A stretch of 64,000 nucleotides of DNA from Psychromicrobium lacuslunae (GTDB lineage: Bacteria; Actinomycetota; Actinomycetes; Actinomycetales; Micrococcaceae): the NCBI RefSeq assembly GCF_000950575.1, contig NZ_CP011005.1:2852001-2916000 (forward strand). Reading direction: 5' to 3'. Within the stretch, counting starts at the first letter, position 1. Every line of letters starts with the position of its first letter. The position numbers were made by a program, and so were the translations under genes. Shown here in pieces: positions 1 through 51,740 of the stretch. The notes beneath the pieces were generated by a model. The model was given only the letters and a program-made list of their open reading frames with translations. It was not told the origin of the DNA and did no database searches.

Positions 1-29
1 CAAATTCGGACATGAAGGGATCTACACCA

Positions 30-959
30 GTGGCAAACAACGTCGTTGATCGCCCGCTGCGGTGGCGGAACAGCAAGCGCAGCGAGCGCCCCACCTGGAT
101 GGAAAAACCGCACCCAGTCAGCTTGATATTCAAGCTGCTGGCGATCGCATTAATCATTTTTCTGACCCTTTACCCGATGCTCGCGGTGCTCGGCACCAGC
201 TTCTCCGGCCAGGCTGAAATAGCGCAGAACAATGGCTTGGTGCTCTTCCCCCTGCATCCCACCTTCGACGCCTACCAGACCATCTTCTCCGGCGGCGTGG
301 TCACCAGTGCACTCCTCAGATCGCTACTGATCACCATTGTCGGAACCGCTGCCTCGCTGGCCATCACCGTGGCAATGGCTTACGGCCTGACCAGGCGAGA
401 CCTGGTTGGCGGCAAGTTCTTCCTCACCGCGGCACTTTTCACCATGCTGTTCAGCGCGGGCATCATCCCGAATTTCCTGGTGGTCAAGGAGCTGGGCTTG
501 CTCAATAATTACGCCGCTTTAATCCTGCCGGTGATGATCTCTGCCTTCAATTTGATTGTGATTCGTTCCTTCTTTCAGAACCTCCCCCAGGAGCTGATCG
601 AAGCGGCGCGAATCGACGGTGTGGGCGATTTCGGCATCCTGATCCGGATCGTGCTGCCGCTCTCCAAAGGTGTGCTGGCGGTAATCGGCCTGTTTTACGC
701 GGTCAATTACTGGAATGCCTTCTTCAGCGCGATGCTCTATCTGGACGCCGATCAATGGCCACTGCCGATGATCCTGAGGCAATATGCCCTGCTCGGTCAA
801 CCGATGACGGACGGCGCAAATACTGCCGAAATCGCGGCCCCATCACAAGCCATCCAGATGGCTGTCGTGGTGATCAGCCTGATCCCCATCGTGCTGGTCT
901 TCCCTTTCCTCCAGCGTTACTTCACCAAGGGCGTCCTCACCGGCGCCGTCAAAGGCTGA
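30..959 (+). CDS. Carbohydrate ABC transporter permease (LplC/MalG type)
   Basis: Inner-membrane permease of a CUT1-type sugar ABC importer. About six hydrophobic segments are visible, and the cytoplasmic EAA loop that contacts the ATPase reads EAARIDGVGDFGILIRIVLP. Length (309 residues) fits the family. A GTG at 30 has an AAGGGA Shine-Dalgarno 9 bases upstream; an ATG at 12 in the same frame has no visible ribosome site, so the GTG is preferred, although the window edge hides the context. The next gene encodes the binding protein. A partner permease (LplB type) is expected just upstream of the window. Many importers of this class share a common ATPase (MsiK type), and none is encoded here. 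Substrate is unknown; the following genes suggest an oligosaccharide or glycoside. Confidence 0.93.
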   Translation: MANNVVDRPLRWRNSKRSERPTWMEKPHPVSLIFKLLAIALIIFLTLYPMLAVLGTSFSGQAEIAQNNGLVLFPLHPTFDAYQTIFSGGVVTSALLRSLLITIVGTAASLAITVAMAYGLTRRDLVGGKFFLTAALFTMLFSAGIIPNFLVVKELGLLNNYAALILPVMISAFNLIVIRSFFQNLPQELIEAARIDGVGDFGILIRIVLPLSKGVLAVIGLFYAVNYWNAFFSAMLYLDADQWPLPMILRQYALLGQPMTDGANTAEIAAPSQAIQMAVVVISLIPIVLVFPFLQRYFTKGVLTGAVKG

Positions 960-1005
960 GTCCTCAGCACCAGGCCAGCTAACCATCCCACTACCGAAGG
1001 AAATC

Positions 1006-2649
1006 ATGACCGAATCCTTGAGCCACAGCAGCCGCCGGTCCTTTCTGGCACTGGCGGGACTGAGTACCGCATTCATTGGCACTGCCTTCCTGACCGGCTG
1101 CGGTCAACGCACCCCCTCCGGCAACGTGACCGGAGGAGATGTCACCCTGCCTCAGTACACCCCGGCCAAAGATTTTAAGCCTGACTTGGCTGGCACCAAG
1201 GACGGTGTACCGGCGGCCTTCTACAACTATCCGAAACCTTACAAAACAGTCAGTACGCCACCGCTCAAGGGCCAAAGCTACAGCGCCACGACGCTGCTCT
1301 TCGGTCCGGTAGCCAACGCTAAAAACAACAACCCGGCCTGGCAGGAAATTGAAAAACGCCTCGGCGGCAGCATTGAACTCACCGCGGTCTCTTCCGACGA
1401 CTACGGCACCAAGCTGAATACCCAAATCGCGGGTGGCAACCTACCGGACATGATGTTCAACGATGGCGCCGCGATTCCCGATATTGTCAGCTTCCTGCAG
1501 TCCAGTTGTGCCGATCTGACTCCTTTCCTCAGTGGCGAAAACATCAAGGCTTACCCCAATCTGGCAGCGATTCCCGAGGTCTATTGGAAGGCCTGCGTAC
1601 AGGCCGGGAAGATCTATTTCCTGCCCATCCCGCGCGGTCTGACCGGAGGATCCGGTTTCTTCAACCACACCCTGCTGAAGCAGGCAGGCATTGAATCAAC
1701 CGAGCAGATCAAGAACAAAGACGATTTCAGCTCAGTGCTCAAGGAACTCACCCGGCCACAGCAGAACCAATGGGCGCTAGGTAGCACCGGCTTCGGCCTG
1801 CCCACCCTGCACCACATCTTCCGCACTCCTTACCAGTGGCGCTTGGATCAAAATGAATTGGTCAAGGACTTTGAGACCGACGAATATCTGGCGGCGGTTG
1901 AGTACGCTGCGGGCCTCTACAAAGCCGGCTATTACTGCCCAGGATCGGACGGCTGGACGAAGAGTCAGATGGTCAACGCCTTCGTCTCCGGCAAGGTCAC
2001 CATGATCTACGACGGGCTGCCCGCCTACCTGAGCAGCACCGGTTATGCGGTCTCACTACCCCAGGCCAACTCCAGCTACCGAGCGATGCCAATTATTCCG
2101 TTCGGGCACGATGGCGGTAAGGGGCAGGCCTGGATCGACAACGTTGTAGTGGGAACCACAATGTTCAAGAAGAACGACGAGAACAAAATCAAAGACCTGC
2201 TCTCGGTGGCAAACTTCCTGGCGGCACCCTTCGGCAGCGAAGAGTACCTATTGATCAACTACGGCATTGAGGGCACTGACTACACTCTCGACGCGAAAGG
2301 TAATCCGCAGGCCACCCCGCAGGCGCAGCAGCACACCGGGGTACCGTGGAAATTCCTGGCCGCTCCGCAGCAGGCAATTTACAGCCCACTCGGTAAAACT
2401 CCGGTGGACACTCTGCATGCTGCCTATACCAAACTCATTCCGGGCGCCTCGGTGAATCCTTGCGCCAATCTTTTCAGTGCCACCGATGCGGCCAAGGGCA
2501 ACGTCCTGAGCAAGGGCGTCACCGATACAGTGAAGGGCTTTATCGCCGGGCGGCAAAGCATGGACGACCTCAAAAACTCGATCAACAAATGGAAGCAGTC
2601 CGGCGGAGACACTATCCGAGGAGAATACGAGAAACTACTGAGCAAGTAA
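1006..2649 (+). CDS. Extracellular sugar-binding lipoprotein (LplA-like), Tat exported
   Basis: Binding protein that captures the substrate outside the cell and delivers it to the permease encoded upstream. The N-terminus has a twin arginine (R10-R11 in SRRSFLALAG), a hydrophobic stretch and a lipobox LTGC with the lipidated cysteine at C32, so it is probably a Tat-exported lipoprotein. At 547 residues it matches the long LplA/LipO group of type 1 solute-binding proteins rather than the roughly 420-residue MalE group. An AAGGAA ribosome site precedes the ATG. It lies 46 bases after the permease and 50 bases before the DUF2264 gene, so it belongs to the same transcription unit. Confidence 0.92.
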   Translation: MTESLSHSSRRSFLALAGLSTAFIGTAFLTGCGQRTPSGNVTGGDVTLPQYTPAKDFKPDLAGTKDGVPAAFYNYPKPYKTVSTPPLKGQSYSATTLLFGPVANAKNNNPAWQEIEKRLGGSIELTAVSSDDYGTKLNTQIAGGNLPDMMFNDGAAIPDIVSFLQSSCADLTPFLSGENIKAYPNLAAIPEVYWKACVQAGKIYFLPIPRGLTGGSGFFNHTLLKQAGIESTEQIKNKDDFSSVLKELTRPQQNQWALGSTGFGLPTLHHIFRTPYQWRLDQNELVKDFETDEYLAAVEYAAGLYKAGYYCPGSDGWTKSQMVNAFVSGKVTMIYDGLPAYLSSTGYAVSLPQANSSYRAMPIIPFGHDGGKGQAWIDNVVVGTTMFKKNDENKIKDLLSVANFLAAPFGSEEYLLINYGIEGTDYTLDAKGNPQATPQAQQHTGVPWKFLAAPQQAIYSPLGKTPVDTLHAAYTKLIPGASVNPCANLFSATDAAKGNVLSKGVTDTVKGFIAGRQSMDDLKNSINKWKQSGGDTIRGEYEKLLSK

Positions 2650-2699
2650 CACTTCTCCCCGCACCGCGACCGGCCAATCTTCAAGGACACTTTTTCACC

Positions 2700-4679
2700 A
2701 TGTCACCGTCCCCTTTTGCCTTACCTGCCCTCGATCCCGTGCTATCCGCGCGGACCGGTTGGACCCGAGAGCACTGGTGGCGCACCGCCGACCGCTGGCT
2801 GGCTCCGGTGCTTGCCGCCGCCAGTCCTGGACACGCCTTGCCGGTGCTGCCGGGCCGGGTGACGCGCGACGGCGAGCGTCGGGAGAGCATGGAGTTGATT
2901 GGCCGCAGCCTGCTCTTGGCGGCACCGCGGATCGCTGGTGCCCATCAGTCCACTAGCTCCGCCGAAGAACGTGCCGACGGTGAACGGCTTGCAGCCTGGT
3001 ACCGACAGGCGCTGATTAGCGGAACCAGCCCGGATGGGCCGGAGGCCTGGCCACTGGGGGTTTCCTGTCGGACGCCCTTGCAAGGGGTGACCAATTCCAT
3101 CGTGGAAGCCGCCAATATTTCCTATGCCCTGGCGACCGCGACTGAGCAGCTCTGGGAGCCGCTCAGCGATTCCGAAAAAGCTCAGCTGGCCGCCTGGCTG
3201 CGTCATCACGCCTCGCTAGAGGTCTGGCAGAACAACTGGCAGCTTTTCCCGGCGCTCGCCGAGGGCTTCCTACGTTCGGTGGGTGAGGACGTCCGTGGGC
3301 TGCATAACTCCCGGAATGTGGCGAGAGTTGAGGGTTGGTACACGAACGAGGGTTGGTACACGGACGGTCCGGAACACGCCTATGACTACTACAACGCTTG
3401 GGCTATTCACCCCTACTTAGAGGCCTGGTATCGGCTGACCGGAACCACGCAGAGCGCGGAAGGGCAACGCCATCTTGGCCGGCTGAGCGAGTTCGTCGCA
3501 GGTTTCGGCAGCTTCGTCGCCGACGATGGTTCGCTGCTACATTTTGGTCGCTCGCTCAGCTATCGCACCGCTGCCCTGGCCGCACTGTGGAGTGCAGAAG
3601 CGGCCGGGGTAAACCCGCTCGGTCCGGGTGAGTCCCGAGCCCTCGCCTCCGCCGTGCTCAGCCGATTTATCGATCGGGGTGTCGGGGTCGACGAGCCGCT
3701 GAGCTTGGGCTGGTACCAGCCCCACCTCGGCAGCTGCCAAAGCTACAGCGGATTCGGCTCGCCCTTCCTGGCTGGTATCGGCTTCTCAGGCTTAGCGCTG
3801 CCAGCCGATCACCCGGTCTGGACCAAACCCGAGCCGAGCGCTGAGACCACCAACGCAGCCGCCGTCATCCGTTCAGTGCCTGACCTCGGCTGGTCGCTGG
3901 CGCGTGCCGATGGCGTGGTCAGGCTGATTAACCATGGCAGCGATCACTGCTGGTTGCCGGTGGAGGGAGGCGCCGACCCGGACGATCCGCACTACGCTAA
4001 ATTCGCCTATTCCTCACATACCGCACCGGGAACCGGTGCCGCCTGGCGGGACAATATCGACGGCCATCTGGCGCTACTGAATGCCGACGGCGTGGCCAGC
4101 CGCCGTGCCGCACTGCGCGGAACTCGCAGTGAAGGCGCGATCAGCGGATCTGTTCAGCTGCCACAACTCAACGGCAAGACCCTGCCCGGCAGTGCGGTGC
4201 TGACCGTGTCAATTCTGCACGCCGACCATGAGTTGCGCTGCCACCTGGTGTACGGGGCGGAGCATTACAGCCTTCGTGAAGGCAGCTTCGCGCTGGCCGC
4301 AGAGCAACCACCGGAGCTGAGCATCGAAGGCCTCGCCGCCCGGCTGGAAACCGCCGAGCTGCGTAGCGGGCTGCTCGGCCTGCACGGCTGGCAAAGCATT
4401 AGCTCGGCGCGCTACCAGGGGTGCAATGCGCTCGGTGAGCACTCAGCAGTGGCCTTCCTGCAGGCCACCGGCTCTCCGGGTCCTACGGTATACATCGCGC
4501 TACACAGCTTGGGCCGCAGCGCACCGCCGCGCCAGGCTGCCGAGGTAGTGAGGGTCGAAGTGGCGGGCTCGAGCGTGCACTGGAACTGGGTCGACGGGGA
4601 ATCCGGGACGGTCGACATTGCCAGCTTTGTGCCCTGGGACGGCGTGCTCAAAGGATTCAGCGAAAGGGTCATCGGGTGA
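2700..4679 (+). CDS. DUF2264 domain protein, putative intracellular glycan-processing enzyme
   Basis: A 659-residue protein that looks like the DUF2264 family over its full length. An N-terminal helix-rich part (WLAPVLAAASPGH onwards) resembles alpha/alpha-toroid enzymes, followed by a beta-rich C-terminal half. No signal peptide is visible, so it should act on imported substrate. The frame stays open upstream to 2460 inside the binding-protein gene, but the ATG at 2700 has an AAGGA site at 2682-2686 and starts the family-like sequence, so it is chosen. The last four bases overlap the GH29 gene start (GTGA). No activity is firmly established for the family as far as I know; a polysaccharide-lyase or glycosidase role is inference from fold resemblance and from the neighbours. 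Confidence 0.85.
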   Translation: MSPSPFALPALDPVLSARTGWTREHWWRTADRWLAPVLAAASPGHALPVLPGRVTRDGERRESMELIGRSLLLAAPRIAGAHQSTSSAEERADGERLAAWYRQALISGTSPDGPEAWPLGVSCRTPLQGVTNSIVEAANISYALATATEQLWEPLSDSEKAQLAAWLRHHASLEVWQNNWQLFPALAEGFLRSVGEDVRGLHNSRNVARVEGWYTNEGWYTDGPEHAYDYYNAWAIHPYLEAWYRLTGTTQSAEGQRHLGRLSEFVAGFGSFVADDGSLLHFGRSLSYRTAALAALWSAEAAGVNPLGPGESRALASAVLSRFIDRGVGVDEPLSLGWYQPHLGSCQSYSGFGSPFLAGIGFSGLALPADHPVWTKPEPSAETTNAAAVIRSVPDLGWSLARADGVVRLINHGSDHCWLPVEGGADPDDPHYAKFAYSSHTAPGTGAAWRDNIDGHLALLNADGVASRRAALRGTRSEGAISGSVQLPQLNGKTLPGSAVLTVSILHADHELRCHLVYGAEHYSLREGSFALAAEQPPELSIEGLAARLETAELRSGLLGLHGWQSISSARYQGCNALGEHSAVAFLQATGSPGPTVYIALHSLGRSAPPRQAAEVVRVEVAGSSVHWNWVDGESGTVDIASFVPWDGVLKGFSERVIG

Positions 4680-6040
4680 TTGAACTCAATTACGGCGCGA
4701 GCCGACAGCAGCCCCGGCAAGATGCCGCGATGCAGCGGTTTCGTGAGCATCGCTTCGGTCAGTTCGTGCACTGGGGGCTTTACGCCATGCCGGCCGGCTA
4801 CTGGCAGGGCACAGAGTATCGTTTTGCGGCGGAATTTCTGCAAAAAACCGCCAATATTCCGGAGCCGGAGTGGGCGGAATTGGCTCAGCAGTTCAGTGCT
4901 GAGGCTTTCGACGCCGATGCCTGGGCCGCTCTGGCAGCTCGCAGCGGGGTCAAATATGCCACCTTCACTACCAAACATCACGATGGCTTCTGCCTCTGGC
5001 CGAGCCAGTACACCGACTTCCACTCCGGAAACACGCCGGCCGCCCGCGACTTCATCGGCGAACTAGTCGCGGCCTATCAGCGACACGGTATTGATGTCTA
5101 CCTCTACTATTCAGTGCTGGACTGGCACCATCCGGATTGGCGCTATCGCCTGGAGAGTGCCGAGGATCAGCAGGCCTTCAAGCGTTATTTGGATTTTGCC
5201 ATGAACCAACTGGTGGAATTGGCGCAACGTTACCCCAGCGTGAAGGGTTTCTGGTTCGACGGCACCTGGGACGAATCGGTAAAGGCCAATGGCCGCTGGA
5301 CCTGGGAAGTGGAACAACGACTTAAGGAACTCATCCCAGGGCTCATCGTGAGCAGCCGACTGCGCGCCGATGACCTGGGAGCCCGGCATCGTGATTCAAA
5401 TGGCTCGCTGATGGGTGACTACGAGAGCGGCTATGAACGTCGGCTGCCAGACCCTTGGGACCGCTCGGTCTGCGAGCAGGACTGGGAGGCGTGTATGACG
5501 ATTCCGCAGGCCAGTTGGGGCTACCACGCCGGGCCCTGGGCGAAGCGAACTCGGAAGAGCGCTGCGGAGCTGATCGATATGATCGCGCACTGCACCTCAT
5601 TAAGCGGGAACTTCCTGCTCAACTTCGGGCCACGCGGCGATGGTTCTATTGACCCGGAGGATGCCGCCCTAGCCGAGCAGATCGGCAATTGGCTGGCTCA
5701 GAACGGGGCGGCAATCTACGGCAAAGGCGTGGCCACGAACTGGAGTTACCCAGGCTGGGGTTATTACACCCAGGAGGCGGATTCGGAAACCGTGTATGCG
5801 GTAGTGACAAAATGGCCAACCGCTCGTCGGCTCCGCTTGCAGTTGCCAGCGGGTGAACGGTTACTCGCTGCCACCCTCTTGCGGGAACCCGCCCTGCAAC
5901 TGAATCCTCAGGAGCTGGAGACTTCGCTTTTCGAACTTGAGCTGGGCAATAGCTCGGAGGAGACACTGGTTTTCGAGCTGACCACCGCAGCGGCAGAGGA
6001 GCAGAGCTGGACCGAGCCGAATCCGGATGTGATGGTCTAA
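4676..6040 (+). CDS. GH29 alpha-L-fucosidase-like glycoside hydrolase
   Basis: A retaining glycosidase of family GH29, expected to release L-fucose or a related alpha-linked sugar. Family motifs are clear: FVHWGLYAMPAGYW near the N-terminus, TKHHDGFCLWPS in the middle, YYSVLDWHHPDW, and FWFDGTWDE with the probable catalytic nucleophile D195. The protein is 454 residues with no signal peptide, so it works in the cytoplasm on imported material. It starts with a GTG overlapping the DUF2264 stop by four bases, and its stop shares one base with the next ATG. Such couplings suggest co-translation. The true substrate may not be fucose, because no fucose isomerase, fuculokinase or fuculose aldolase is visible in the operon. 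Confidence 0.9.
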   Translation: MIELNYGASRQQPRQDAAMQRFREHRFGQFVHWGLYAMPAGYWQGTEYRFAAEFLQKTANIPEPEWAELAQQFSAEAFDADAWAALAARSGVKYATFTTKHHDGFCLWPSQYTDFHSGNTPAARDFIGELVAAYQRHGIDVYLYYSVLDWHHPDWRYRLESAEDQQAFKRYLDFAMNQLVELAQRYPSVKGFWFDGTWDESVKANGRWTWEVEQRLKELIPGLIVSSRLRADDLGARHRDSNGSLMGDYESGYERRLPDPWDRSVCEQDWEACMTIPQASWGYHAGPWAKRTRKSAAELIDMIAHCTSLSGNFLLNFGPRGDGSIDPEDAALAEQIGNWLAQNGAAIYGKGVATNWSYPGWGYYTQEADSETVYAVVTKWPTARRLRLQLPAGERLLAATLLREPALQLNPQELETSLFELELGNSSEETLVFELTTAAAEEQSWTEPNPDVMV

Positions 6041-6858
6041 TGCCACTAGCATTTTCTACTCTGGGGTGCCCCTCCGCGAGCCTCGATGAAGTATTCGAAT
6101 TGGCGAACCGCTTCGGCGTCCGCGGCCTCGAATTGCGTTCGGGTGACGACCAACTCGTGCACCCCGGGCTGAGCCCGGCCACCCGCACCGAACTACGCAG
6201 ACGCTGCCAAGCCCAGGGCTTGCATCTGCTCAGCGTAGCCAGCTACCTGCGATTACTCGGTGGTGGCGTCGACAATGACCTCGACGATGCGGAGGCGCAA
6301 CTCACCTTGGCCGCAGATCTGCAGGCCTACGGTCTCCGAGTCTTTCCCGGCGGTGCGACAGATCAGCCGGTAGACACCCAGAGCGATCAGGATTTACTGA
6401 AAAGCCTGTTACTGCTCTCTGAGCGTGCCGCCGCTCTGGGCGTCAAAGTGCTGGTAGAGACCCACGATCAATATCGTCGCGGTCGGGACCTGGCCCGCGT
6501 GCTGCTACAACTGGACAAGAGCCTTCCCGGCCACCAAGTCAGGGTGATCTGGGACCTCAGACACAGCTGGCAAGCGGGCGAATTGCCCTCGGAGACCTAC
6601 CAGTTCCTCAGGCCCTGGCTCGGTTATCTGCAGCTTAAGGATCTACGGTCCAACGGAGAACTGGTCTTGCCCGGTCAGGGTGAGCTTCCGTTACGCGAGA
6701 CGGTCGCGCTGCTCGGGGCGGACAGCTGGTATTCGCTGGAGTGGGAAGCGGCCTGGCACCCGGAATTACCTCCACTCGGCGCTGCCCTTGAGGCACTAGC
6801 TGAACTCAAACTTTTTAGCCAAAACGACACTGAGCTGGTCAAGAGAGGACCACAATGA
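6040..6858 (+). CDS. Sugar phosphate isomerase/epimerase family protein (TIM barrel, copy 1)
   Basis: A 272-residue AP-endonuclease-2/xylose-isomerase-like TIM barrel. Metal-ligand positions typical of the superfamily appear in VLVETHDQYRRG, VRVIWDLRHSW, YLQLKDLR and YSLEWEAAWH. Members of this superfamily act as sugar or keto-sugar isomerases and epimerases, and some cleave 3-keto-glycosides by elimination. The ATG shares its A with the preceding TAA, and the 3' end overlaps the Gfo/Idh/MocA gene by four bases. Pairing with a dehydrogenase of that family suggests it handles an oxidised (keto) sugar. The exact reaction cannot be read from sequence. Confidence 0.85.
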   Translation: MPLAFSTLGCPSASLDEVFELANRFGVRGLELRSGDDQLVHPGLSPATRTELRRRCQAQGLHLLSVASYLRLLGGGVDNDLDDAEAQLTLAADLQAYGLRVFPGGATDQPVDTQSDQDLLKSLLLLSERAAALGVKVLVETHDQYRRGRDLARVLLQLDKSLPGHQVRVIWDLRHSWQAGELPSETYQFLRPWLGYLQLKDLRSNGELVLPGQGELPLRETVALLGADSWYSLEWEAAWHPELPPLGAALEALAELKLFSQNDTELVKRGPQ

Positions 6859-8039
6859 CAACGACTGACCTCAACCCCGGGGCTAAGAAGACACTCAAAA
6901 TTGCCGCCCATGGGGTGACCGGCCGGATGGGCTATCGTCAGCACTTACTAAGGTCGCTGCTACCGCTACGCGAAACCGGGCTGCTACTGGAGGACGGTAG
7001 TAAAGTCGAGATCGAGTTGCTGATCCTTGGCCGAGATCAAGGGAAAATCAAAGAGCTCGCCAGCAAGCATCACATCGCGGAATGGTCGACCGACGTCGCT
7101 ACCGCGCTCACCGACCCATCGGTCGACGTCTTCTTCGACGCGGCCACTACGACGATGCGACCCGACCTTTTGCACCGAGCGCTCACCGCGGGTAAACACA
7201 TTTACTCCGAGAAACCCACTGCTCTCGACTCAGCTACTGCGATTTCCCTGGCCCGCGCCGCTGCGGGCTCGGAGCGCACCAGCGGGGTGGTGCATGACAA
7301 GTTGTACCTGCCCGGCCTGGTCAAGCTTCGTCGGCTGATCGACCAGGGATTTTTCGGCCGCTTGCTGTCCCTGCGCGGTGAGTTTGGTTACTGGGTTTTC
7401 GAAGGCGACACCCAGGCTGCGCAACGACCCTCCTGGAACTACCGGAAAGAGGACGGCGGTGGTATTACCACCGATATGTTCTGCCATTGGAACTACGTAC
7501 TTGAGGGCCTGATTGGCCCGGTGCGCAGCGTCGACGCCAAGATCGTCACCCATATTCCGCAGCGCTGGGACGAGCAGGGTAAGGCCTACCAGGTCACCGC
7601 TGACGATGCTGCCTACGGCAGTTTCGAATTGGAAGGCCCCGATGGCGGCCAGGTAATAGCTCAGATTAACTCCTCCTGGGCGGTTCGGGTGCACCGCGAT
7701 GAACTGGTGGAATTCCAGCTGGACGGCACCGAAGGCTCGGCCGTCGCGGGGCTTTTCCACTGTGTCGCTCAGCACCGGGCGAACACTCCTAAACCGGTCT
7801 GGAATCCCGATCTGCCGGTCGCCGAGTCTTTTCGCGAGCAGTGGTTTGAGGTGCCGGACAATGCCGCCCTGGAGAACGGGTTCGCGGCACAATGGCAGGA
7901 ATTTTTGCGGGACTGTCTGGCTGGCCGGAAGCATCGTTTCGATCTACTCTCGGCGGCTCGCGGCGTGCAGTTGGCCGAGCTCGGCCTGGCGGCCAGCAGC
8001 GAGCGCCGCACCGTCGATGTACCGGAGATCGGCTTATGA
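6855..8039 (+). CDS. Gfo/Idh/MocA family NAD(P)-dependent sugar oxidoreductase
   Basis: A 394-residue dehydrogenase. The N-terminal Rossmann fold begins at KIAAHGVTGRMGYRQHLL (a slightly unusual AAHGVTGRMG nucleotide loop), and the family EKP motif is at HIYSEKP. The C-terminal sheet domain carries GGGITTDMFCHWNY, with the probable catalytic His. Such enzymes oxidise a ring hydroxyl or inositol hydroxyl to a ketone. The ATG overlaps the previous stop (ATGA), and its own TGA overlaps the DUF993 start. Its place between two isomerase-like barrels suggests it creates the keto intermediate that they process. Confidence 0.9.
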   Translation: MTTTDLNPGAKKTLKIAAHGVTGRMGYRQHLLRSLLPLRETGLLLEDGSKVEIELLILGRDQGKIKELASKHHIAEWSTDVATALTDPSVDVFFDAATTTMRPDLLHRALTAGKHIYSEKPTALDSATAISLARAAAGSERTSGVVHDKLYLPGLVKLRRLIDQGFFGRLLSLRGEFGYWVFEGDTQAAQRPSWNYRKEDGGGITTDMFCHWNYVLEGLIGPVRSVDAKIVTHIPQRWDEQGKAYQVTADDAAYGSFELEGPDGGQVIAQINSSWAVRVHRDELVEFQLDGTEGSAVAGLFHCVAQHRANTPKPVWNPDLPVAESFREQWFEVPDNAALENGFAAQWQEFLRDCLAGRKHRFDLLSAARGVQLAELGLAASSERRTVDVPEIGL

Positions 8040-9172
8040 GCAACCTCGGCCAGCTCGACGCGGCACCCCGTACTGCTCCGGTCTTCAATTCGCGCCGAGC
8101 CTATGCGGCTGCTCATGTGGTGCCCCAGGCCGAAGCTGAGAACACTCCGGGCGGCGCGGTGAAACTCGACTGGGACGCCACCTTGCGAATCCGGCATCGG
8201 CTCTGGCAACTCGGACTTGGCGTGGCAGAGGCAATGGATACCGCGCAGCGCGGTATGGGCCTGGACTGGCCGAGCAGTGCCGAACTGATTCGACGTTCCG
8301 CCCAGGAGGCACAAGCGGTGAACGGCCTCTTGGCCTGCGGAGCTGGCACCGATCAACTCGATCCAGCCAGCATCGGCGACGGTGGCGCCAAGGCTCTGAA
8401 ACGCATTCTGGCTGCTTACCGGCAGCAAATCGATGTGGTGCAGAATGCCGGTGGAACAGTAATTTTAATGGCTTCTCGTGCTTTGGCTAAGGCAGCCAGG
8501 CATGCCGATGACTATTTCACGGTGTATTCCACCCTGCTTGATGAACTGGATCGTCCAGCGATCCTGCACTGGCTGGGCGATATGTTTGATCCGGCCTTGC
8601 GCGGATATTGGGGTTCGACCGATCTGCAGAGCGCCGAGCAGACCGTGCTGCAGATCATCAGCGCGCATCCCGAAAAGGTTGATGGCATCAAAATGTCGCT
8701 GCTGGATCCGGGCCGCGAAATCTCATTGCGCCGTCGTCTACCACTCGGCGTCAGAATGTACACCGGAGATGACTATAACTACTCATCGCTTATCCACGGC
8801 GATGAATACGGCCACTCGGATGCACTGTTGGGCGCCTTCGCAGCGATTGCCCCGGTGGCATCAGAGGCACTAGCGGCCTATGACCGCGGCGAACCGGAGC
8901 AGGGCCGAGCTCTGCTGGCCACTACCGAAGAGCTCAGCCGGCATATCTTCGCCGAACCGACCTACTACTACAAGACCGGCATCGCCTTCCTATCCTGGCT
9001 TAATGGCGATCAACCGGGTTTCCAGATGGTGGCCGGACTGCATGCCGCCCGCTCGGTGCCGCATTTGCGCGAGCTGCACCGGCTGGCCAGCCTGGCCGGG
9101 GTGCTCAAGGATCCTGGTTTGGCCCGCTCCCGGATGGACGACTGGTTGCGAGTCTGTGGAGTGCAGCGATGA
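8036..9172 (+). CDS. DUF993 family protein, class I aldolase-like (DapA superfamily)
   Basis: A 378-residue DUF993 protein, often annotated as dihydrodipicolinate synthase family. The motif VDGIKMSLLD places a lysine (K219) where DapA-type aldolases carry the Schiff-base lysine (GIK), so a retro-aldol cleavage or lyase step is likely. An acidic, aromatic loop follows (MYTGDDYNYSSLIHGDEYGH). The ATG at 8036 overlaps the upstream TGA by four bases and is chosen over a longer in-frame extension to 7892 that runs inside the oxidoreductase gene. The downstream isomerase gene overlaps by four bases. Membership in a sugar operon supports cleavage of a modified sugar acid or keto-sugar; the substrate is unknown. 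Confidence 0.82.
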   Translation: MSNLGQLDAAPRTAPVFNSRRAYAAAHVVPQAEAENTPGGAVKLDWDATLRIRHRLWQLGLGVAEAMDTAQRGMGLDWPSSAELIRRSAQEAQAVNGLLACGAGTDQLDPASIGDGGAKALKRILAAYRQQIDVVQNAGGTVILMASRALAKAARHADDYFTVYSTLLDELDRPAILHWLGDMFDPALRGYWGSTDLQSAEQTVLQIISAHPEKVDGIKMSLLDPGREISLRRRLPLGVRMYTGDDYNYSSLIHGDEYGHSDALLGAFAAIAPVASEALAAYDRGEPEQGRALLATTEELSRHIFAEPTYYYKTGIAFLSWLNGDQPGFQMVAGLHAARSVPHLRELHRLASLAGVLKDPGLARSRMDDWLRVCGVQR

Positions 9173-10083
9173 GCGCCGAATCACTGACCAGGTTCTCGCT
9201 GAATACCGCCACCATTAAGCGGAGCTCATTAATTGAGGCAATCTCGTTGACGGCCCACTCCGGCTTGGGCTGGATCGGGCTCTGGCGAGATCGGGTCGCC
9301 GAGGTGGGCGTCAAGGAGGCTCGAGAACGGTTGGACGACGCCGGCCTGCGGGTCAGCTCACTGTGTCGCGGCGGTTTTCTGAGTACCAGGGACCCTCGGG
9401 CCAGAGCGGAGGCACTAGCTGACAATCGGCGGGCCATCGCTGAGGCGGCCGAACTGGGAGCGAGCGAACTGGTGATCGTGGCGGGTGGGCTCTTTGACTT
9501 CGCGGGAGCCATTGCGGGCCGGGCCTCGGCAAATCAATATCCGGTGCTCACTGCCGGCGAGAAGGATTTGGCCGATGCCCGCCAACGGGTGGCCGAAGCG
9601 ATCTCTATCCTGGTTCCCGAAGCCCTAGCCCACGGGGTCCGGCTCGCCCTTGAGCCTCTGCACCCGATGTACGTGGCTGATCGCGCGGTGCTCTCCACGC
9701 TGAGCCAGGCGTTGGACCTGGCCGAGCAGTTCGATCCGGCCGCGGTGGGTGTGGTGGTTGATAGTTTCCACGTTTTCTGGGACCCAGCGCTAAGACAGCA
9801 GATTCTGCGGGCCGGCCGGACTGGCCGAATTTCCAGCTACCAGATCAGCGACTTCGTGCTGCCGTTGGCGGCCGATAGCTTGCTCTCTCGCGGTTACCCG
9901 GGCAGCGGTTATATTGACTTTGGCACCATGACCCGATGGGTCACAGAGGCAGGCTATCTCGGGCCGGTGGAGGTTGAGATTTTCAACCAGCACATCTGGG
10001 ACAGCCCGGCCGAAGAGGTGATCCGCCGAGCTAAGCAGGGCTTTCTCAGCCAGCTGCAACCGGCCCTCAGCTCCCTCAGCTGA
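9169..10083 (+). CDS. Sugar phosphate isomerase/epimerase family protein (TIM barrel, copy 2)
   Basis: A 304-residue xylose-isomerase-like TIM barrel, only distantly similar by eye to the copy at 6040-6858. It shows RLALEPLHPMYVADRA, VGVVVDSFHVFWDP and GPVEVEIFNQHIW, all typical metal-ligand segments of the superfamily. It is the last gene of the operon and its ATG overlaps the DUF993 stop by four bases. It may isomerise or epimerise the product of the dehydrogenase, or act in an inosose or 3-keto-sugar route. Only 18 bases separate it from the convergent LuxR-type regulator, leaving little room for a terminator. Confidence 0.85.
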   Translation: MSAESLTRFSLNTATIKRSSLIEAISLTAHSGLGWIGLWRDRVAEVGVKEARERLDDAGLRVSSLCRGGFLSTRDPRARAEALADNRRAIAEAAELGASELVIVAGGLFDFAGAIAGRASANQYPVLTAGEKDLADARQRVAEAISILVPEALAHGVRLALEPLHPMYVADRAVLSTLSQALDLAEQFDPAAVGVVVDSFHVFWDPALRQQILRAGRTGRISSYQISDFVLPLAADSLLSRGYPGSGYIDFGTMTRWVTEAGYLGPVEVEIFNQHIWDSPAEEVIRRAKQGFLSQLQPALSSLS

Positions 10084-10101
10084 GCTTTGGCATGGTGAGG
10101 A

Positions 10102-13041
10102 TCAGCTAGAGCTAGCCAGCACGGCTGCCTCTGTTCGACTGCTTGCGCCAAGTTTGCGCAGGATCGCCGAGACGTGCACGCTCGCGGTTTTTGTGCTGAT
10201 GAAGAGACGCTCGCCAATTTGGCGATTACTTAATCCTTCAGAAATTAATGCCAGCACCTGAGCCTCCCGCGCGGTGAGTTGCAAGGAGTCTGCTGGGCCG
10301 CGTTTCCTGGACTTACCTTCGACGGCCAATCCGGCCAGTTCCGCTGCGTCGAAGGCGTGTTGTTCGATCAGTCGCGCGCCCAGCATCCTCGCGCCGCTAA
10401 TGGCCTGATCGAACTCCCGCTGGGCTGCCTCCCGCTCACCCCGGGCAAGCCAGGCTAAGGCAAGTCGATATCGTGCATAGGGCCTGAAGATGGCCTGCGC
10501 TTCGGCCGCCTGAAGCTGCTCGACAGCGGCCCGCCAAAGCTCCGGATCATCACCGATTCCGGCGGATCCGCCAAGCTCGGCGTCAAAAATACTCCTCCAG
10601 CTGGCAGCGGTCGGCCAAAAGGCGCAATCCTCCAAAAGGTTCCGCCATTGTGCCTCGGTGGCTGCAAGCTCTTCGGCTGAAAGACCGGCCAGACTACTTT
10701 CGATGGCAAAGCCCGAACCGGAGACTCTTTCCCGTACCCGGGCGAGCAGCCGGGCGGCGATTCCCAGCAGAGGCAGATCATAAGCTGGTGCAAAACAATG
10801 TTCAACGGTCAGGTACCGAGTTTGTTGCCACGCGGTTTCAAGGTCCCCAGCGGAGAGTAGAACTTCTATTGTGGCCCGAGCGCTCTGCATTCTGGTTTGC
10901 AATTCTTGCGCGGCAAGCCGCTCCGTGGCGGCACGCCAGCCGCGGTAGAGTTCCATCGACCGTTCGGGGTCTCCCTGCCAGAGTGTAAGCAGCATCTTGG
11001 ATTGCCGCAGGTAGATCTGGAAAGCTAGTGGCGGTTCTAGCGCCAAGGTGCGATCCAGCATCTCCTCGGCCTCGGCCCAACGCCCCAATGCCATGAGCGG
11101 CTCCACCGCATTAGAGGCCATAATGGCTCCCGAGCTGCGTTCAACGCCCACCGCCTTGGCGCGTCGAATGCCTTCAATGGCAAGTTCCGCAGATTCCTCA
11201 TAGCGACCCAATAGGTTGGTCATATCCGAGGCGTTGACCCGATACCTCAGCAGCGCGCTGGCGTCACCTTCGGCGAGCGGTTCCGCAGAAGCAAGGGTTT
11301 TTAGTCCTTCGTCCAACTCGCCCAGTTGAGCCAAACTGCAACCCGAAATGCTGGCAGCAATAGAAAGATCCCGTGCGGAATGACCACGCGCTATCCGCTC
11401 GACCTCGCCACTGACCCGAATCGCTTCCCGGTAATTACCCATGATCATCTGCCGGGCAGCAATGTTATTGAGCAAACTAGCTCGTAAGTAGGCGGGAGCA
11501 TCGGCAGGTAGCAGGGTAAGCGCCTGCTCAAGCAGTTCAAGGCTTCCGGACCTGCTAATGGTGGTCAGATACATAGCTTTATCGCGCAGCAATTTCACCT
11601 GAGTCAGCGCCTCCCGCGGCTCAGGATCGGCCAAAGCGGCATCGAGCGTTGAAATAGCACGGTCGCTGTCCCCGGCGTTCCGCAAGGCGCTGGCGGCACG
11701 CCTCATCAGTTCAACTCTCGATACTCCGGCGAGCTCGGCGGCATCCGGCAACTGATCCCAGAGTTCAAGTAAACGTTCGGCGAGCTGCGCCTCGCTGGCG
11801 AAGGCATAGCCGGCATGTGCTTCCTGCATGGCGGCCACCGTGGCTGGGAAGGCTTGTTGGGCGTTTCGAGCCGACATCCAGTGATAGGAGATCTCGGCAG
11901 ATGACGGCACCGCAGTCGCAGTACGGGCTAGTTCGACGGCGTAACCGGCGTGAAACCTCAGCCGCTCACCGGGTAATAAGTCGGCGTAAATGGCTTCCCG
12001 CACCAAAGCGTGCCGGAAGGTGTAACTATCCGCCTCGGCGATCAACACACTCTCCGACACAGCCTCCCGCAAGGAGAGTTCAAGTTCAGCCAGGTCACCG
12101 TCGAAGATCCGCTCCAGCAGCTGATGATCGACTGACATCCCGCCCACCGAAATCAGCCGAAGTACTTTTTGAGCCAGCGTCGAAAGCCGCTCGTAACGTG
12201 CCAGCAGAAGTTCCCGCAGAGTATCCGGCAAGTCATCTCCGCTACAGGTTTCATCAAGCCCCAGCAGCTCTTCAACGAAGAAGGGTACCCCCTCACTCCG
12301 TTCAAATACTCGATCTATCGCGGCACTCGCCGGTGCACTACCCACAATTGCCTGCGCCTGAGCGGCCACCTGATCTCGGGAAAGCCGGCCAATATCGTGT
12401 CGCGCAACCCGTCGGGTGCGATCCAGCTCGGTCAGGAAGCCGCGCACCGGGTGGCCGCGTGGTACGTCCTCACTGCGATAACTCAGCAACAGCATCACTC
12501 GATCACAACTGAGCGCCCGCACCACAAAGGACAGTAATCGCAAGGTAGCGGTATCCGCCCAATGTAAATCCTCAACGATCGCCACTACTGTGCGTTTTTG
12601 AGCCAAGGTTTCCAGTACCACGGCCACCGTTTCGTGTAGGCGGCCCAGACCCCCGGAACCAGAAGAACTCTCTAGACTGCCGATCTCCCCGTTCGATGCC
12701 AGCGAGGGTAGCAGTGCGGCCAGGGTGTCCCTTCCCGGACCGGCGGCGTCCAGTACTGCAACCGCGCCCAATTGGCCGACCAAATCCCGTAATAGATCGA
12801 TCACCGGAGCGTAAGGAGTGGCAACTTGGCCCAGGTCCACACATTGACCCCGAATCACCAAGGCGCTGTCTTTCACTTCTCGACGAAAGTCGGTGATGAG
12901 CCGCGTCTTACCGATTCCCGCCTCGCCACTGAGCACGATGCCACGCGGTTCCCCTCCGTCAACCACCTCGAAGAGCTGCCTTAGCACCGAAAGATCGGCC
13001 TCGCGGCCGATCATCGTTGGGCTGCTCACCGGTACGTTCAT
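10102..13041 (-). CDS. Large ATP-binding LuxR-family regulator (LAL/MalT-like)
   Basis: A 979-residue transcriptional regulator. The N-terminal AAA/STAND ATPase has Walker A GEAGIGKT at residues 39-46 and Walker B in VVAIVEDLHWAD. A long helical middle follows, probably TPR-like ligand or protein sensor repeats. A C-terminal LuxR helix-turn-helix lies in the last 65 residues (LTAREAQVLALISEGLSNRQ). LAL regulators are usually ATP-dependent activators of sugar or secondary-metabolism genes. An ATG at 13041 is used; a TTG one codon upstream is possible, and neither has a strong ribosome site. It converges on the sugar operon, so control of that operon is plausible but not shown. The small gene at 13152-13391 lies upstream on the same strand. 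Confidence 0.9.
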   Translation of the reverse strand: MNVPVSSPTMIGREADLSVLRQLFEVVDGGEPRGIVLSGEAGIGKTRLITDFRREVKDSALVIRGQCVDLGQVATPYAPVIDLLRDLVGQLGAVAVLDAAGPGRDTLAALLPSLASNGEIGSLESSSGSGGLGRLHETVAVVLETLAQKRTVVAIVEDLHWADTATLRLLSFVVRALSCDRVMLLLSYRSEDVPRGHPVRGFLTELDRTRRVARHDIGRLSRDQVAAQAQAIVGSAPASAAIDRVFERSEGVPFFVEELLGLDETCSGDDLPDTLRELLLARYERLSTLAQKVLRLISVGGMSVDHQLLERIFDGDLAELELSLREAVSESVLIAEADSYTFRHALVREAIYADLLPGERLRFHAGYAVELARTATAVPSSAEISYHWMSARNAQQAFPATVAAMQEAHAGYAFASEAQLAERLLELWDQLPDAAELAGVSRVELMRRAASALRNAGDSDRAISTLDAALADPEPREALTQVKLLRDKAMYLTTISRSGSLELLEQALTLLPADAPAYLRASLLNNIAARQMIMGNYREAIRVSGEVERIARGHSARDLSIAASISGCSLAQLGELDEGLKTLASAEPLAEGDASALLRYRVNASDMTNLLGRYEESAELAIEGIRRAKAVGVERSSGAIMASNAVEPLMALGRWAEAEEMLDRTLALEPPLAFQIYLRQSKMLLTLWQGDPERSMELYRGWRAATERLAAQELQTRMQSARATIEVLLSAGDLETAWQQTRYLTVEHCFAPAYDLPLLGIAARLLARVRERVSGSGFAIESSLAGLSAEELAATEAQWRNLLEDCAFWPTAASWRSIFDAELGGSAGIGDDPELWRAAVEQLQAAEAQAIFRPYARYRLALAWLARGEREAAQREFDQAISGARMLGARLIEQHAFDAAELAGLAVEGKSRKRGPADSLQLTAREAQVLALISEGLSNRQIGERLFISTKTASVHVSAILRKLGASSRTEAAVLASSS

Positions 13042-13151
13042 CAATTCATCGTTTCATAGACCACCGACGCGGAGTCAATGGTTGCTAAGCGAATCTAGTC
13101 AGCATTATCACCGTTCCTGACGGCTGACCGGCTGCCGCCTCGCAGAGTGAG

Positions 13152-13391
13152 CTACTGGGTGGCTTTGAGCAGTGCGGCTGCTGAATCACAGTTCGGCAGC
13201 TGCCCGCTGCGCACTCTCCGCCCGGTCGCAAGACCCGCGATTAGCCGCTCAAGCCAGTTATGCTGTGACCTCGACAACCTGCCTTCCGCTGCCGCCTCCT
13301 TCATCATCCGACGAAGCTCCAATTCTTTGCGCAGCTCTCGCTGCTCCGCCTCGGCTAAACTGCTTGAAATCTGGGCTGGGATGATATTCAT
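13152..13391 (-). CDS. Small hypothetical protein
   Basis: An unrecognised 79-residue protein starting at an ATG with an excellent AGGAGG site four bases upstream. The longer reading to 13424 lacks such a site. The N-terminal 50 residues look helical and highly charged (AEAEQRELRKELELRRMMKE), then a basic stretch (LIAGLATGRRVRSG) and a short tail. No signal peptide or membrane segment is visible. It lies 110 bases upstream of the LuxR-type regulator on the same strand and could be co-transcribed with it. The strong ribosome site and the non-random composition support a real gene. Confidence 0.6.
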   Translation of the reverse strand: MNIIPAQISSSLAEAEQRELRKELELRRMMKEAAAEGRLSRSQHNWLERLIAGLATGRRVRSGQLPNCDSAAALLKATQ

Positions 13392-13771
13392 CGTTCCTCC
13401 TATGGACTGTCCCGATGAACTCAATATTTCTCTCTAAGGTGGCAGTGCTACCTCCGGCAAGTGCCCTATTTTTTGGAAAAAATCCCTACTATTCACCGCT
13501 GAGACTAGGTAGTTTGCGCCGTAACTAGCCCCGAACTAGCCCCGAGAAAACACCGAGAAAATTCAACTCGGCAGCAAACTACAAGCGTGTAAGTTATGCC
13601 CAGTTGTGAATAAGCCTGTGGATAACTTGCTGCTGTGTAGCCACGGAGTCACCGCAGTGTTGCTGGCGTAGAGCTGTGAATTTGCTGAGGTTGACTTTGC
13701 CTGGGCTGAGTCGATGTAATTGAAAGGACTTACGCCAATCGTTGGCGTTTCCGACATGATGGGGATTTAGC
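13392..13771. other. Intergenic region between divergent genes, with repeat A
   Basis: A 380-base spacer without a convincing gene. It holds a short direct repeat (AACTAGCCCCG twice at about 13522-13544), the 51-base DnaA-box-like repeat A at 13577-13627, and then about 140 bases leading to the lipoprotein start. It should contain promoters for the divergent small gene and the lipoprotein, but none stands out. Confidence 0.5.
13577..13627 (+). repeat. 51-base repeat copy A with DnaA-box-like motifs
   Basis: 44 of 51 bases match copy B at 14726-14776. It contains TTATGCCCA (13594-13602, one mismatch to TTATNCACA), TGTGAATAA (13605-13613, a reverse perfect TTATNCACA box) and TGTGGATAA (13617-13625, reverse TTATCCACA). 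The blocks CAGTTGTG and CTGTGGATAACT also occur, closer together, inside oriC at 28723-28746. Confidence 0.75.
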
Positions 13772-14566
13772 ATGCCGATAACCAAGATCAAACCCGGCCT
13801 ATCACGATTTTCAGCACTGACTGGGGTAGCTGCCATCGCCGTATTCGCCCTGGTCGGCTGTGGTGGAGGTGGCTCAACCGCTCCTACTAGCACGTCTAGC
13901 GAAAAGACCTCGGCAAGCGAGCAAACGAGCTCCAGCGAGGAAAGCTCTTCGAGCGAGCAAAGCAGCAGTGACCGCTCTCCTGAGAGCACCGCCTCAGAGA
14001 GTGCGAGCAATGCTCCTGCCGATACCGGTAAGGCTGGTGCCCTGACTCCTCCTGGCACCAAGCTGAAAGTCGGCCAATCAGCTAACACTCACGCCAATAC
14101 CGGCAAGGATCCCAAGGATGCTAAATACAAAGAGGCCACTTACACCACCACGGTAACCAAGATCGTTGCCGGTGGTCCTGCGGACCTCTCAAAGTTCAAG
14201 GACGCGGCTAAGTATGCAGGCCAAACTCCCTATTATGTCTTCGCCGACCACAAGCTCACTTCGCTGAACAAGCCCGGCGTGGGTTTGAGTGCACCGTCCT
14301 TAGATGCCCAACTCAAAGATGGCACCGATGCCCAGAAGCTGCTCGTTATCGGTAGCTTCGATCAGTGCAAGACCAAGTCTTTTGAAACCACTGGCAGCGG
14401 TGACACGCTGAGCTACCAGGTGGGTAGCGTCTCCACGACGTGCAATATTTTCCTGGCTCCGAAGGGCGATGCGATTAGCTCGGTGAGCTACGACGACCCG
14501 CGCTTCAGCTACGCGAGTTACAGCGACAACCAGTACCGGGACAACCCGATCATCTGGACGAAGTAA
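13772..14566 (+). CDS. Putative secreted lipoprotein with serine-rich linker
   Basis: A 264-residue predicted lipoprotein of unknown function. A hydrophobic signal ends in the lipobox ALVGC, with the modified cysteine at C30. A Gly run and a low-complexity Ser/Thr/Glu linker follow (about residues 35-85), then a globular domain of about 170 residues (KLKVGQSANTHANT onwards) that resembles small immunoglobulin-like lipoprotein domains. Two cysteines (in DQCKTK and TTCNIF) could form a disulfide. A GGGGA site lies seven bases before the ATG. A perfect hairpin follows the stop directly. DnaA-box-like repeats flank the gene on both sides, so it may sit on a small mobile or rearranged segment. Confidence 0.8.
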   Translation: MPITKIKPGLSRFSALTGVAAIAVFALVGCGGGGSTAPTSTSSEKTSASEQTSSSEESSSSEQSSSDRSPESTASESASNAPADTGKAGALTPPGTKLKVGQSANTHANTGKDPKDAKYKEATYTTTVTKIVAGGPADLSKFKDAAKYAGQTPYYVFADHKLTSLNKPGVGLSAPSLDAQLKDGTDAQKLLVIGSFDQCKTKSFETTGSGDTLSYQVGSVSTTCNIFLAPKGDAISSVSYDDPRFSYASYSDNQYRDNPIIWTK

Positions 14567-50590: not shown

Positions 50591-51625
50591 TTAGATTGTT
50601 GGGGATTCGGCGGAGCCGCGCGGAATCAACCGAGTTTTGACGGTGATGGCGCGTGCTGGACCTTGGCTGCCGACAGCTGATCCATCGAGACGACTGAAGA
50701 GCAGTTCGGCGGCGCGCTTTCCGATGGCGGCGGGATCTTGCGCTACCACCGAGATCCCAGGCCTAATCACGTCGGCCAATTCAAAGTCGTCGAAACAGAG
50801 CAGCGCTGGCCAGTCAGTATCCGAGGCACGAAGCGCCCGCAGAACAGCGACCGAGGCGCGGCTATTAGTGCAGAAAATAGCGGTGGGTCGTTCCTGAACA
50901 GACCAACGACTCATCTTGGTTAGCCAGTCTGCCAGGCTAGTGCCGCTGGATTGATCAGCGTGTTCCCACTGTGGCACCGCGGAGATTCCGGCTCCCCGTA
51001 ATGCTTGCCAGTAACCGTCGATCCGCTGCTGCACGGTGTAGAGCTTACTGCCGTCGCTCAGACAGGCAATTCTCCGGTGCCCTTGGGTGATTAGGTGATT
51101 GACGCCGTCGACTGCGCCGCCAAAGTTATCGCTCAACACGGTGTCTGCTTCGAAGCCCTCCGGTGGCCGATCAACAAAAACCATTGGGGTGCCAGCCCGA
51201 ATTTCCTCTTGCAGAAAACTCTGCTCCAAACCGCCGGGTGCCGCGACGATCAAGCCGTCAACGCGTCGTGCGCAGAGGGCTTGAATGAGTTCGCGAGCAT
51301 GAGCCGTATCGTTGCTACTCGAAGCGGTGATCGACAGGGTGCCCCGCAGAGTGGCCTCGGTCTCGATCGCTCGATTCAAGGTGGAAAAAAATGGATCGGA
51401 CATATCGTCCAGCACCACGCCAATGCTGGCCGCGATGCCCTGACGGAGCAGCCGGGCGCTGTCATTGCGTCGGAAATCCAGGGTTTCGATGGCGTTTTGT
51501 ACAGCTGATCGAGTCTGTTCGCTGACATTGGCATCGCCATTGACCACGCGGGAAACGGTGGCGAGTCCCACGCCAGCCCGGGCGGCAACATCCTTCATGG
51601 TGGCTCGGGTACGGGCTGTGTTCAT
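50591..51625 (-). CDS. LacI family transcriptional regulator
   Basis: A 344-residue LacI-type repressor. The N-terminal helix-turn-helix reads TMKDVAARAGVGLATVSRVV with the hinge-side LRQG, followed by the periplasmic-binding-like effector domain (IGVVLDDMSDPFFSTL, GLIVAAPGGLE, VFVDRPPEGFEADTVLSD). The ATG at 51625 is used; a LacI-type operator sits four bases before it, so an upstream ATG at 51658 is less likely and the mRNA may be nearly leaderless. Divergent from the GH92 gene, which has its own operator. It probably senses a sugar released from mannose-containing glycans. Confidence 0.92.
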   Translation of the reverse strand: MNTARTRATMKDVAARAGVGLATVSRVVNGDANVSEQTRSAVQNAIETLDFRRNDSARLLRQGIAASIGVVLDDMSDPFFSTLNRAIETEATLRGTLSITASSSNDTAHARELIQALCARRVDGLIVAAPGGLEQSFLQEEIRAGTPMVFVDRPPEGFEADTVLSDNFGGAVDGVNHLITQGHRRIACLSDGSKLYTVQQRIDGYWQALRGAGISAVPQWEHADQSSGTSLADWLTKMSRWSVQERPTAIFCTNSRASVAVLRALRASDTDWPALLCFDDFELADVIRPGISVVAQDPAAIGKRAAELLFSRLDGSAVGSQGPARAITVKTRLIPRGSAESPTI

Positions 51626-51628
51626 GCT

Positions 51629-51640
51629 GGAAACGTTACC
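51629..51640. promoter_or_regulatory. LacI-type operator upstream of the lacI-like gene
   Basis: GGAAACGTTACC, an imperfect palindrome centred on ACGT, four bases before the regulator's start. It suggests autorepression. Confidence 0.6.
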
Positions 51641-51740
51641 GCAGCTGTGATTACGCATGATCCATGCTGGCTAATATCTGAGCGTTTTAGCCTGGAGCCC
51701 TTGACATCAGCCGATCGGCCACCGTAGATTCCTAGCAGTT

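Follow-up and report, generated by a model that had tools for sequence, protein, structure and literature searches.

Two modules in a carbohydrate operon of Psychromicrobium lacuslunae: a DUF2264-GH29 operon joined to a widespread GFO-DUF993-TIM2 trio

BcGDH, a former GH154 enzyme from PUL25 of Bacteroides caccae, acts on terminal glucuronate by dehydration, and a GH88 enzyme then removes the resulting 4,5-unsaturated residue (as described in the accessible part of PMC12269599). The levoglucosan and 3-keto-glycoside pathways (levoglucosan dehydrogenase, or LGDH; AtOGE; and the C-glycoside deglycosidases) combine Gfo/Idh/MocA oxidoreductases with xylose-isomerase-like barrels. Here we compare these and other described systems with six consecutive enzyme genes from Psychromicrobium lacuslunae, a member of the Micrococcaceae. 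The genes lie at positions 2700-10083 of a 64,000-nucleotide stretch of contig NZ_CP011005.1 (“the window”). All six are on the forward strand, and in order they encode a DUF2264 protein, a GH29 alpha-L-fucosidase-like enzyme, a xylose-isomerase-like barrel (TIM1), a Gfo/Idh/MocA oxidoreductase (GFO), a DUF993 protein, and another xylose-isomerase-like barrel (TIM2). These parts are of known kinds, and the novelty lies in using them together, in the lack of a GH88, and in the altered active site of the aldolase-like protein.

The operon consists of two modules, rather than one conserved six-gene pathway. Module A comprises an ATP-binding cassette (ABC) importer, DUF2264, GH29, and TIM1, plus divergent genes for a D-2-hydroxyacid dehydrogenase (HADH) and a LacI regulator. 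Module B is the trio GFO-DUF993-TIM2. A sequence-only reading of this DNA had noted that the six genes overlap by 1 or 4 bases, and the open reading frames and their junctions bear this out: the consecutive overlaps are 4, 1, 4, 4, and 4 bases, and the first start codon of the trio (GFO) overlaps the stop codon of TIM1. In another genome from the same genus (G026, locus L184; we number genomes with G and loci with L), LacI and HADH genes face genes for two permeases, a solute-binding protein, DUF2264, GH29, and TIM1, in that order. The DUF2264/GH29 and GH29/TIM1 overlaps at L184 are identical to those in the window (4 and 1 bases), and the identities are 49-81%. The operon there stops after TIM1, and we found no match to GFO, DUF993, or TIM2 within this 19 kb stretch. 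The single DUF993 of G026 lies on a separate contig (L160), where all three genes of the trio are present and follow a LacI gene of their own. In a second genome from the genus (G129, L185), module A has decayed and is likewise without the trio. Both permeases, the binding protein, HADH, DUF2264, and a lectin-type protein are each split into at least two pieces at L185. Because the module A copies in the same genus stand without the trio, we think that the trio was placed behind TIM1 in the window. The sequence-only reading had taken all six genes to be linked as a unit, and this did not hold: besides the same-genus operon that ends after TIM1, a survey of 197 Micrococcaceae found DUF993, DUF2264, and GH29 within 30 kb of each other only in the window's genome (contig breaks can hide linkage). 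We also ruled out a conserved six-gene linkage across named DUF993 loci (L033-L112, the best 80 of at least 583 candidates, with flanks of up to 9 kb). By tblastn, which we used for all counts of neighboring genes, GH29 was found in 0/80 of these loci and DUF2264 in 2/80.

To describe the trio, we consider these 80 loci together with the 30 best DUF993 matches from the family (L003-L032, with flanks of about 1.5 kb). In 108 of these 110 loci, the trio is complete, on a single strand, and in the order GFO-DUF993-TIM2. We found neither GFO nor TIM2 beside DUF993 in the other two (L088 and L102). All three genes occur together in six of eight plasmid regions. The plain order is kept in three of these; a mandelate-racemase-like gene interrupts the trio in two others (L114 and L120), and the sixth is reordered (L116). 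We did not find TIM2 in the pAO1 region or GFO in the region from a Janthinobacterium plasmid. The same B module is present in a Sinorhizobium cluster (L114, L120), which includes solved relatives of DUF993 (4DNH, or SMc04132) and of TIM2 (3JU2, or SMc04130). Unlike in the window, DUF993 and TIM2 of the Sinorhizobium cluster are separated by the mandelate-racemase-like gene, and L114 has a TetR regulator. In the literature that we found, no function is described for the Sinorhizobium genes SMc04130-04133 or SMc04135-04140; such locus tags do appear in a table of PMC12542648, as far as that source is accessible. Our literature search found no paper that uses the word DUF993 and none that pairs the dihydrodipicolinate synthase family with the Gfo/Idh/MocA family.

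In a tree of 52 DUF993 sequences, a branch with an SH-aLRT support of 97 contains 36 sequences and excludes the one from the window. This branch includes all of the other sampled Micrococcaceae except for L175, which groups with a Glaciihabitans plasmid. Because the window's DUF993 lies outside the supported clade of most of the sampled Micrococcaceae, the tree suggests that module B was probably acquired by the window's lineage. With a long branch for the window (0.86) and a quickly built tree, the exact position of its DUF993 is unsure.

The trio has various other neighbors. A fusion of GFO and DUF6807, along with an M24 peptidase-like protein, is encoded behind the trio in L151 (5373-8658) and in L051, L057, L155, and L156; these include Nesterenkonia and Paeniglutamicibacter. 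In nine other loci (L036, L037, L041, L042, L046, L063, L097, L098, and L117), the trio is beside genes resembling those for the ABC transporter of L117, which has an NMT1/THI5-type binding protein and not one of the sugar-binding type. This neighborhood is seen in Mycolicibacterium, Nocardia, Rhodococcus-type, Actinoallomurus, and Chelatococcus loci.

Turning to module A, the DUF2264 protein (2700-4679) matches PF10022 with 304.5 bits (cut-off 25). The sequence-only reading had described DUF2264 as a family without a known function, which is outdated: it is the glucuronate dehydratase family, formerly GH154, as reported in the accessible part of PMC12269599. That source lists ten residues whose mutants are inactive in BcGDH. 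We aligned the window's protein to 9o4u/9nwf and mapped these residues by hand, and all ten are identical (E65, R69, N178, N179, W180, F183, Y231, R284, Y288, and Y349 in the window's protein). Across 30 DUF2264 sequences, eight of the ten are invariant, and the N176 and W178 positions are kept in 26/30 and 24/30. (For this and the other conservation counts, we dropped duplicates and sequences with under 80% of the length of the window's protein, and we counted the window's protein itself.) The core of the protein is homologous to that of BcGDH. In contrast to BcGDH, the window's protein has 659 amino acids, with an additional C-terminal part, and it is joined to the GH29-TIM1-GFO-DUF993-TIM2 operon. 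Also, the usual partner of BcGDH is GH88/GH105 (which is not a defining catalytic feature), and a profile search of the window's genome found no match to PF07470 (GH88/GH105), nor to PF01081 (2-keto-3-deoxy-6-phosphogluconate aldolase). The genome has a single match to PF04962 (264 bits), which we read as IolB-like, not KduI, because the matches to this family form two score classes.

Across the family, PF07470 is present in 4 of the 197 Micrococcaceae, none of which carry DUF2264. In three of these genomes (G135, G160, and G174), the PF07470 gene is beside KduI- and Eda-type genes; in the fourth (G185), the match is weak and partial. In the 28 other family genomes with DUF2264, its surroundings include PL8 lyases (8 genomes), sulfatases (11), a heparinase II/III-type protein (6), HADH (13), TIM1 (16), and GH29 (7). 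Islands that combine DUF2264 with PL8 lyases and sulfatases, in Micrococcaceae genomes with no GH88/GH105 match, are found at L164, L172, L173, and L188-L190, and several of the islands of this kind also carry TIM1 and a GFO-like protein.

Pfam confirmed the family names that the sequence-only reading had given to all six proteins. GH29 (4676-6040, with a GTG start) matches PF01120 with 269.1 bits, and it aligns to 2wvv and related entries with 487 bits, including the motifs FWFDG and GYERRLPDP. Its Asp and Glu positions are conserved; we take these to be the catalytic residues of this group (D229/E288 in BT2970). DUF993 (8036-9172) matches PF06187 with 555.2 bits and is related to 4dnh. The earlier description of this protein as aldolase-like was supported by fold comparison: in our model, it has the fold of dihydrodipicolinate synthase (DHDPS), with an invariant lysine on strand 6. 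K219 (strand 6, 215-221), H178 (strand 5), and W179 are kept in 118/118 sequences, with the strands taken from the model. The strand-6 lysine is presumably at the position of the Schiff-base lysine of DHDPS, and in the model the window's DUF993 shares both fold and strand-6 lysine with the class I aldolases DHDPS and N-acetylneuraminate lyase (NAL). We rejected the idea that DUF993 is an ordinary DHDPS, since it has no PF00701 match in the Pfam scan, its hhalign match is weak, and it lacks the tyrosine.

The other three proteins also have conserved active sites. GFO (6855-8039) has Gfo/Idh/MocA domains in Pfam, its closest solved structure is 3oqb (425.5 bits), and K120, D207, and H211 are present in 106/106 sequences. 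TIM2 (9169-10083; PF01261) is related to 3ju2, 3qc0, and 7vpf, and its metal-site residues E162, D198, H201, D228, and E268 are present in 113/113 sequences. TIM1 (6040-6858; PF01261) has a conserved metal-site pattern of E140-D172-Q198-E234 plus H142 (38 sequences). E140-x-H142 on strand 5 resembles the 3-keto-glycoside eliminases in the accessible part of PMC10628242, but the ligand on strand 7 is Gln, not His.

DUF2264 and DUF993 tend to occur in the same genomes. Among the 197 Micrococcaceae, 29 have DUF2264, 67 have DUF993, and 25 have both (odds ratio 18.8, p = 4.5e-10). For comparison, the odds ratios for DUF2264 are 23.4 with GH29, 2.7 with Eda, and 1.9 with IolB-like PF04962. A genus-stratified test of DUF2264 and DUF993, limited to the genomes with a stated genus, gave z = 2.66. 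In a class-wide set of 394 genomes, DUF2264 is present in 63, DUF993 in 120, and both in 59. Linkage also recurs within the family: judging by eye from tables of match positions, DUF2264 and DUF993 are no more than 30 kb apart in 8 of the 25 family genomes with both (G000, G020, G046, G048, G070, G072, G152, and G177), and these represent four genera. Random placement would give about 0.4 such genomes, if genomes are treated as independent, which related genomes are not. DUF2264 is also linked to the trio in loci from Nesterenkonia, Promicromonospora, and Glaciihabitans.

We propose, with a probability of about 0.42, that module B consumes what module A releases from a uronate-capped oligosaccharide, via an aldol-type cleavage. 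The imported sugar chain is probably acidic and fucose-bearing. In the pathway that we infer (including the substrate, each reaction, the sequence of steps, and which way DUF2264 works), the importer would deliver a fucosylated oligosaccharide ending in a uronate, and module A would work in the cytoplasm. GH29 would take off an alpha-L-fucosyl (or L-galactosyl) cap. DUF2264 would act on the terminal beta-uronate to form a 4,5-unsaturated uronyl end, or it might act in reverse on such an end. TIM1 would process the uronyl product, replacing the missing GH88 and KduI steps. The trio, which is mostly free-standing elsewhere, would then turn the sugar or uronate that is set free into small acids by oxidation or reduction, isomerization, and a class-I-type aldol cleavage. 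Glycerate kinase is one likely exit. It is encoded near the trio in 4/80 named loci and in 4/8 plasmid regions, and the window's genome encodes one, which points to an exit via glycerate. A more specific scheme for GH88-independent uronate removal seems improbable to us: DUF2264 would form the unsaturated end, GFO would oxidize C3, TIM1 would catalyze beta-elimination of the aglycone to give a hydroxypyranone carboxylate, and TIM2 and DUF993 would open and cleave the ring to glycerate-type acids. That cleavage would be a class I aldolase chemistry of a new sort, in which His-Trp replaces the tyrosine.

Several observations weigh against a pathway that runs from module A to module B. DUF2264 is absent from 42 of the 67 family genomes with DUF993 and from 78 of the 80 named loci; because module B mostly occurs without DUF2264, its substrate need not come from module A. 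Conversely, in genus g20, DUF993 is missing from 3 of the 4 genomes with DUF2264. The neighbors of the trio differ by lineage. Class-wide, DUF2264 and DUF993 are within 30 kb in just 3 of the 59 genomes with both (G000, which is the window's genome, G214, and G336). DUF993 also accompanies other carbohydrate genes in the family (odds ratios of 8.6 with GH29, 3.3 with Eda, and 3.2 with IolB-like), so lineage, genome size, and a sugar-rich lifestyle explain part of the co-occurrence. The exclusion of GH88 from genomes with DUF2264 is not significant (0/29 versus 4/168, p = 1); since GH88 is so rare in this family, its absence is statistically unremarkable. Finally, DUF993 differs from DHDPS and NAL in that H178-W179 (118/118) are at the position of the strand-5 tyrosine and DTAQRGMG replaces GxTGE, with this placement made from the strand order and a weak profile match (hhalign against the DHDPS profile gave a probability of 1.9). 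Without the tyrosine or a GxTGE-type motif, pyruvate-type cleavage by DUF993 is unproven.

The rarity of the class-wide linkage would also fit with module B being independent and acting on a free monosaccharide, such as a pentose, with the position behind TIM1 supplying only a promoter. Module A would then handle the cap, and module B the released pentose or hexose, of one oligosaccharide. In most of the named loci, module B has its own LacI-type neighbor. Several Arthrobacter-type loci (such as L035) have module B near a xylose-isomerase-like barrel and an FGGY kinase, which by eye are xylose isomerase and xylulokinase; in many Streptomyces loci it is near an ABC transporter that we labelled as ribose-type; and in pAO1, it is preceded by an aldehyde dehydrogenase that is annotated for D-xylose catabolism. 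We consider this explanation possible but doubtful. Against it, DUF2264 is linked to module B repeatedly, across four family genera plus two further families. TIM1 is also near module B in 26/80 named loci without DUF2264 there, but 25 of these 26 are from Streptomycetaceae, so they represent few independent events.

It is unlikely that the genes encode a 3-keto route, in which GFO oxidizes C3 of a glycoside, TIM1 or TIM2 performs beta-elimination or hydrolysis, and DUF993 cleaves the 3-keto product. Although TIM1 shares the strand-5 E-x-H with enzymes of that kind, epimerases and AsbF match it at equal Z in fold comparisons. GFO scores 59.9 bits against the LGDH equivalog NF052479, far below the cut-off of 650. 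In the same-genus operon of module A, we found no gene for GFO, and elsewhere GFO accompanies DUF993 and TIM2, its aldolase-fold partner among them, and not TIM1 or a glycosidase. We give very little credence to the idea that the operon merely feeds a canonical pathway for unsaturated uronates (GH88, KduI, KduD, KdgK, and Eda) that is encoded elsewhere in the genome. The Bacteroides relatives of DUF2264 do operate with GH88 (in the accessible part of PMC12269599). But the window's genome has no PF07470 or PF01081 match and its sole PF04962 match is IolB-like (KduD and KdgK were not searched for), and in three of the four PF07470 genomes, GH88 is beside KduI/Eda-type genes and DUF2264 is absent.

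As the sequence-only reading had it, the six genes follow an importer permease and binding protein, and no hydrophobic N-terminus is visible by eye in any of the six proteins, in line with its claim that they lack signal peptides. An importer-linked catabolic operon is supported. The first permease ends at window position 49 (1-49); the rest is upstream (8051-9049 of L002, whose base 9001 is window base 1). The second permease (12-959; PF00528, 51.6 bits) is followed by a lipoprotein-type solute-binding protein (1006-2649; PF01547/PF13416), and DUF2264 begins 50 bases past the end of that gene. By eye, there is no gene for an ABC ATPase among the listed open reading frames of L002 and of window positions 1-14000. 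The divergent HADH and LacI genes are upstream of the window, and beyond LacI is a secreted-looking protein that is barely at the cut-off for a ricin-type lectin domain. HADH resembles phosphoglycerate dehydrogenase and glyoxylate/hydroxypyruvate reductases, all below the cut-offs, and for seven neighboring proteins, NCBIfam gave below-cut-off matches or nothing. Downstream, a convergent gene (10102-13044, reverse strand), 18 bases past the last gene of the operon, encodes a LuxR-family regulator of 980 amino acids with an AAA domain. Farther away, a forward-strand gene (51807-57719) encodes a 1,970-amino-acid protein with GH92 catalytic and N-terminal, F5/8 type C, and PKD domains, and it is adjoined by a LacI-type gene (50591-51658).

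The members of the trio have solved relatives (4dnh, 3ju2, 3qc0, and 3oqb), yet this widespread trio is unstudied in the literature that we found. The window ties it to the uronate dehydratase family, whose chemistry is known, and therefore suggests concrete substrates. It also raises the question of how the removal of uronates ends in those Micrococcaceae that have PL8 lyases, sulfatases, and DUF2264, but no GH88 or GH105.
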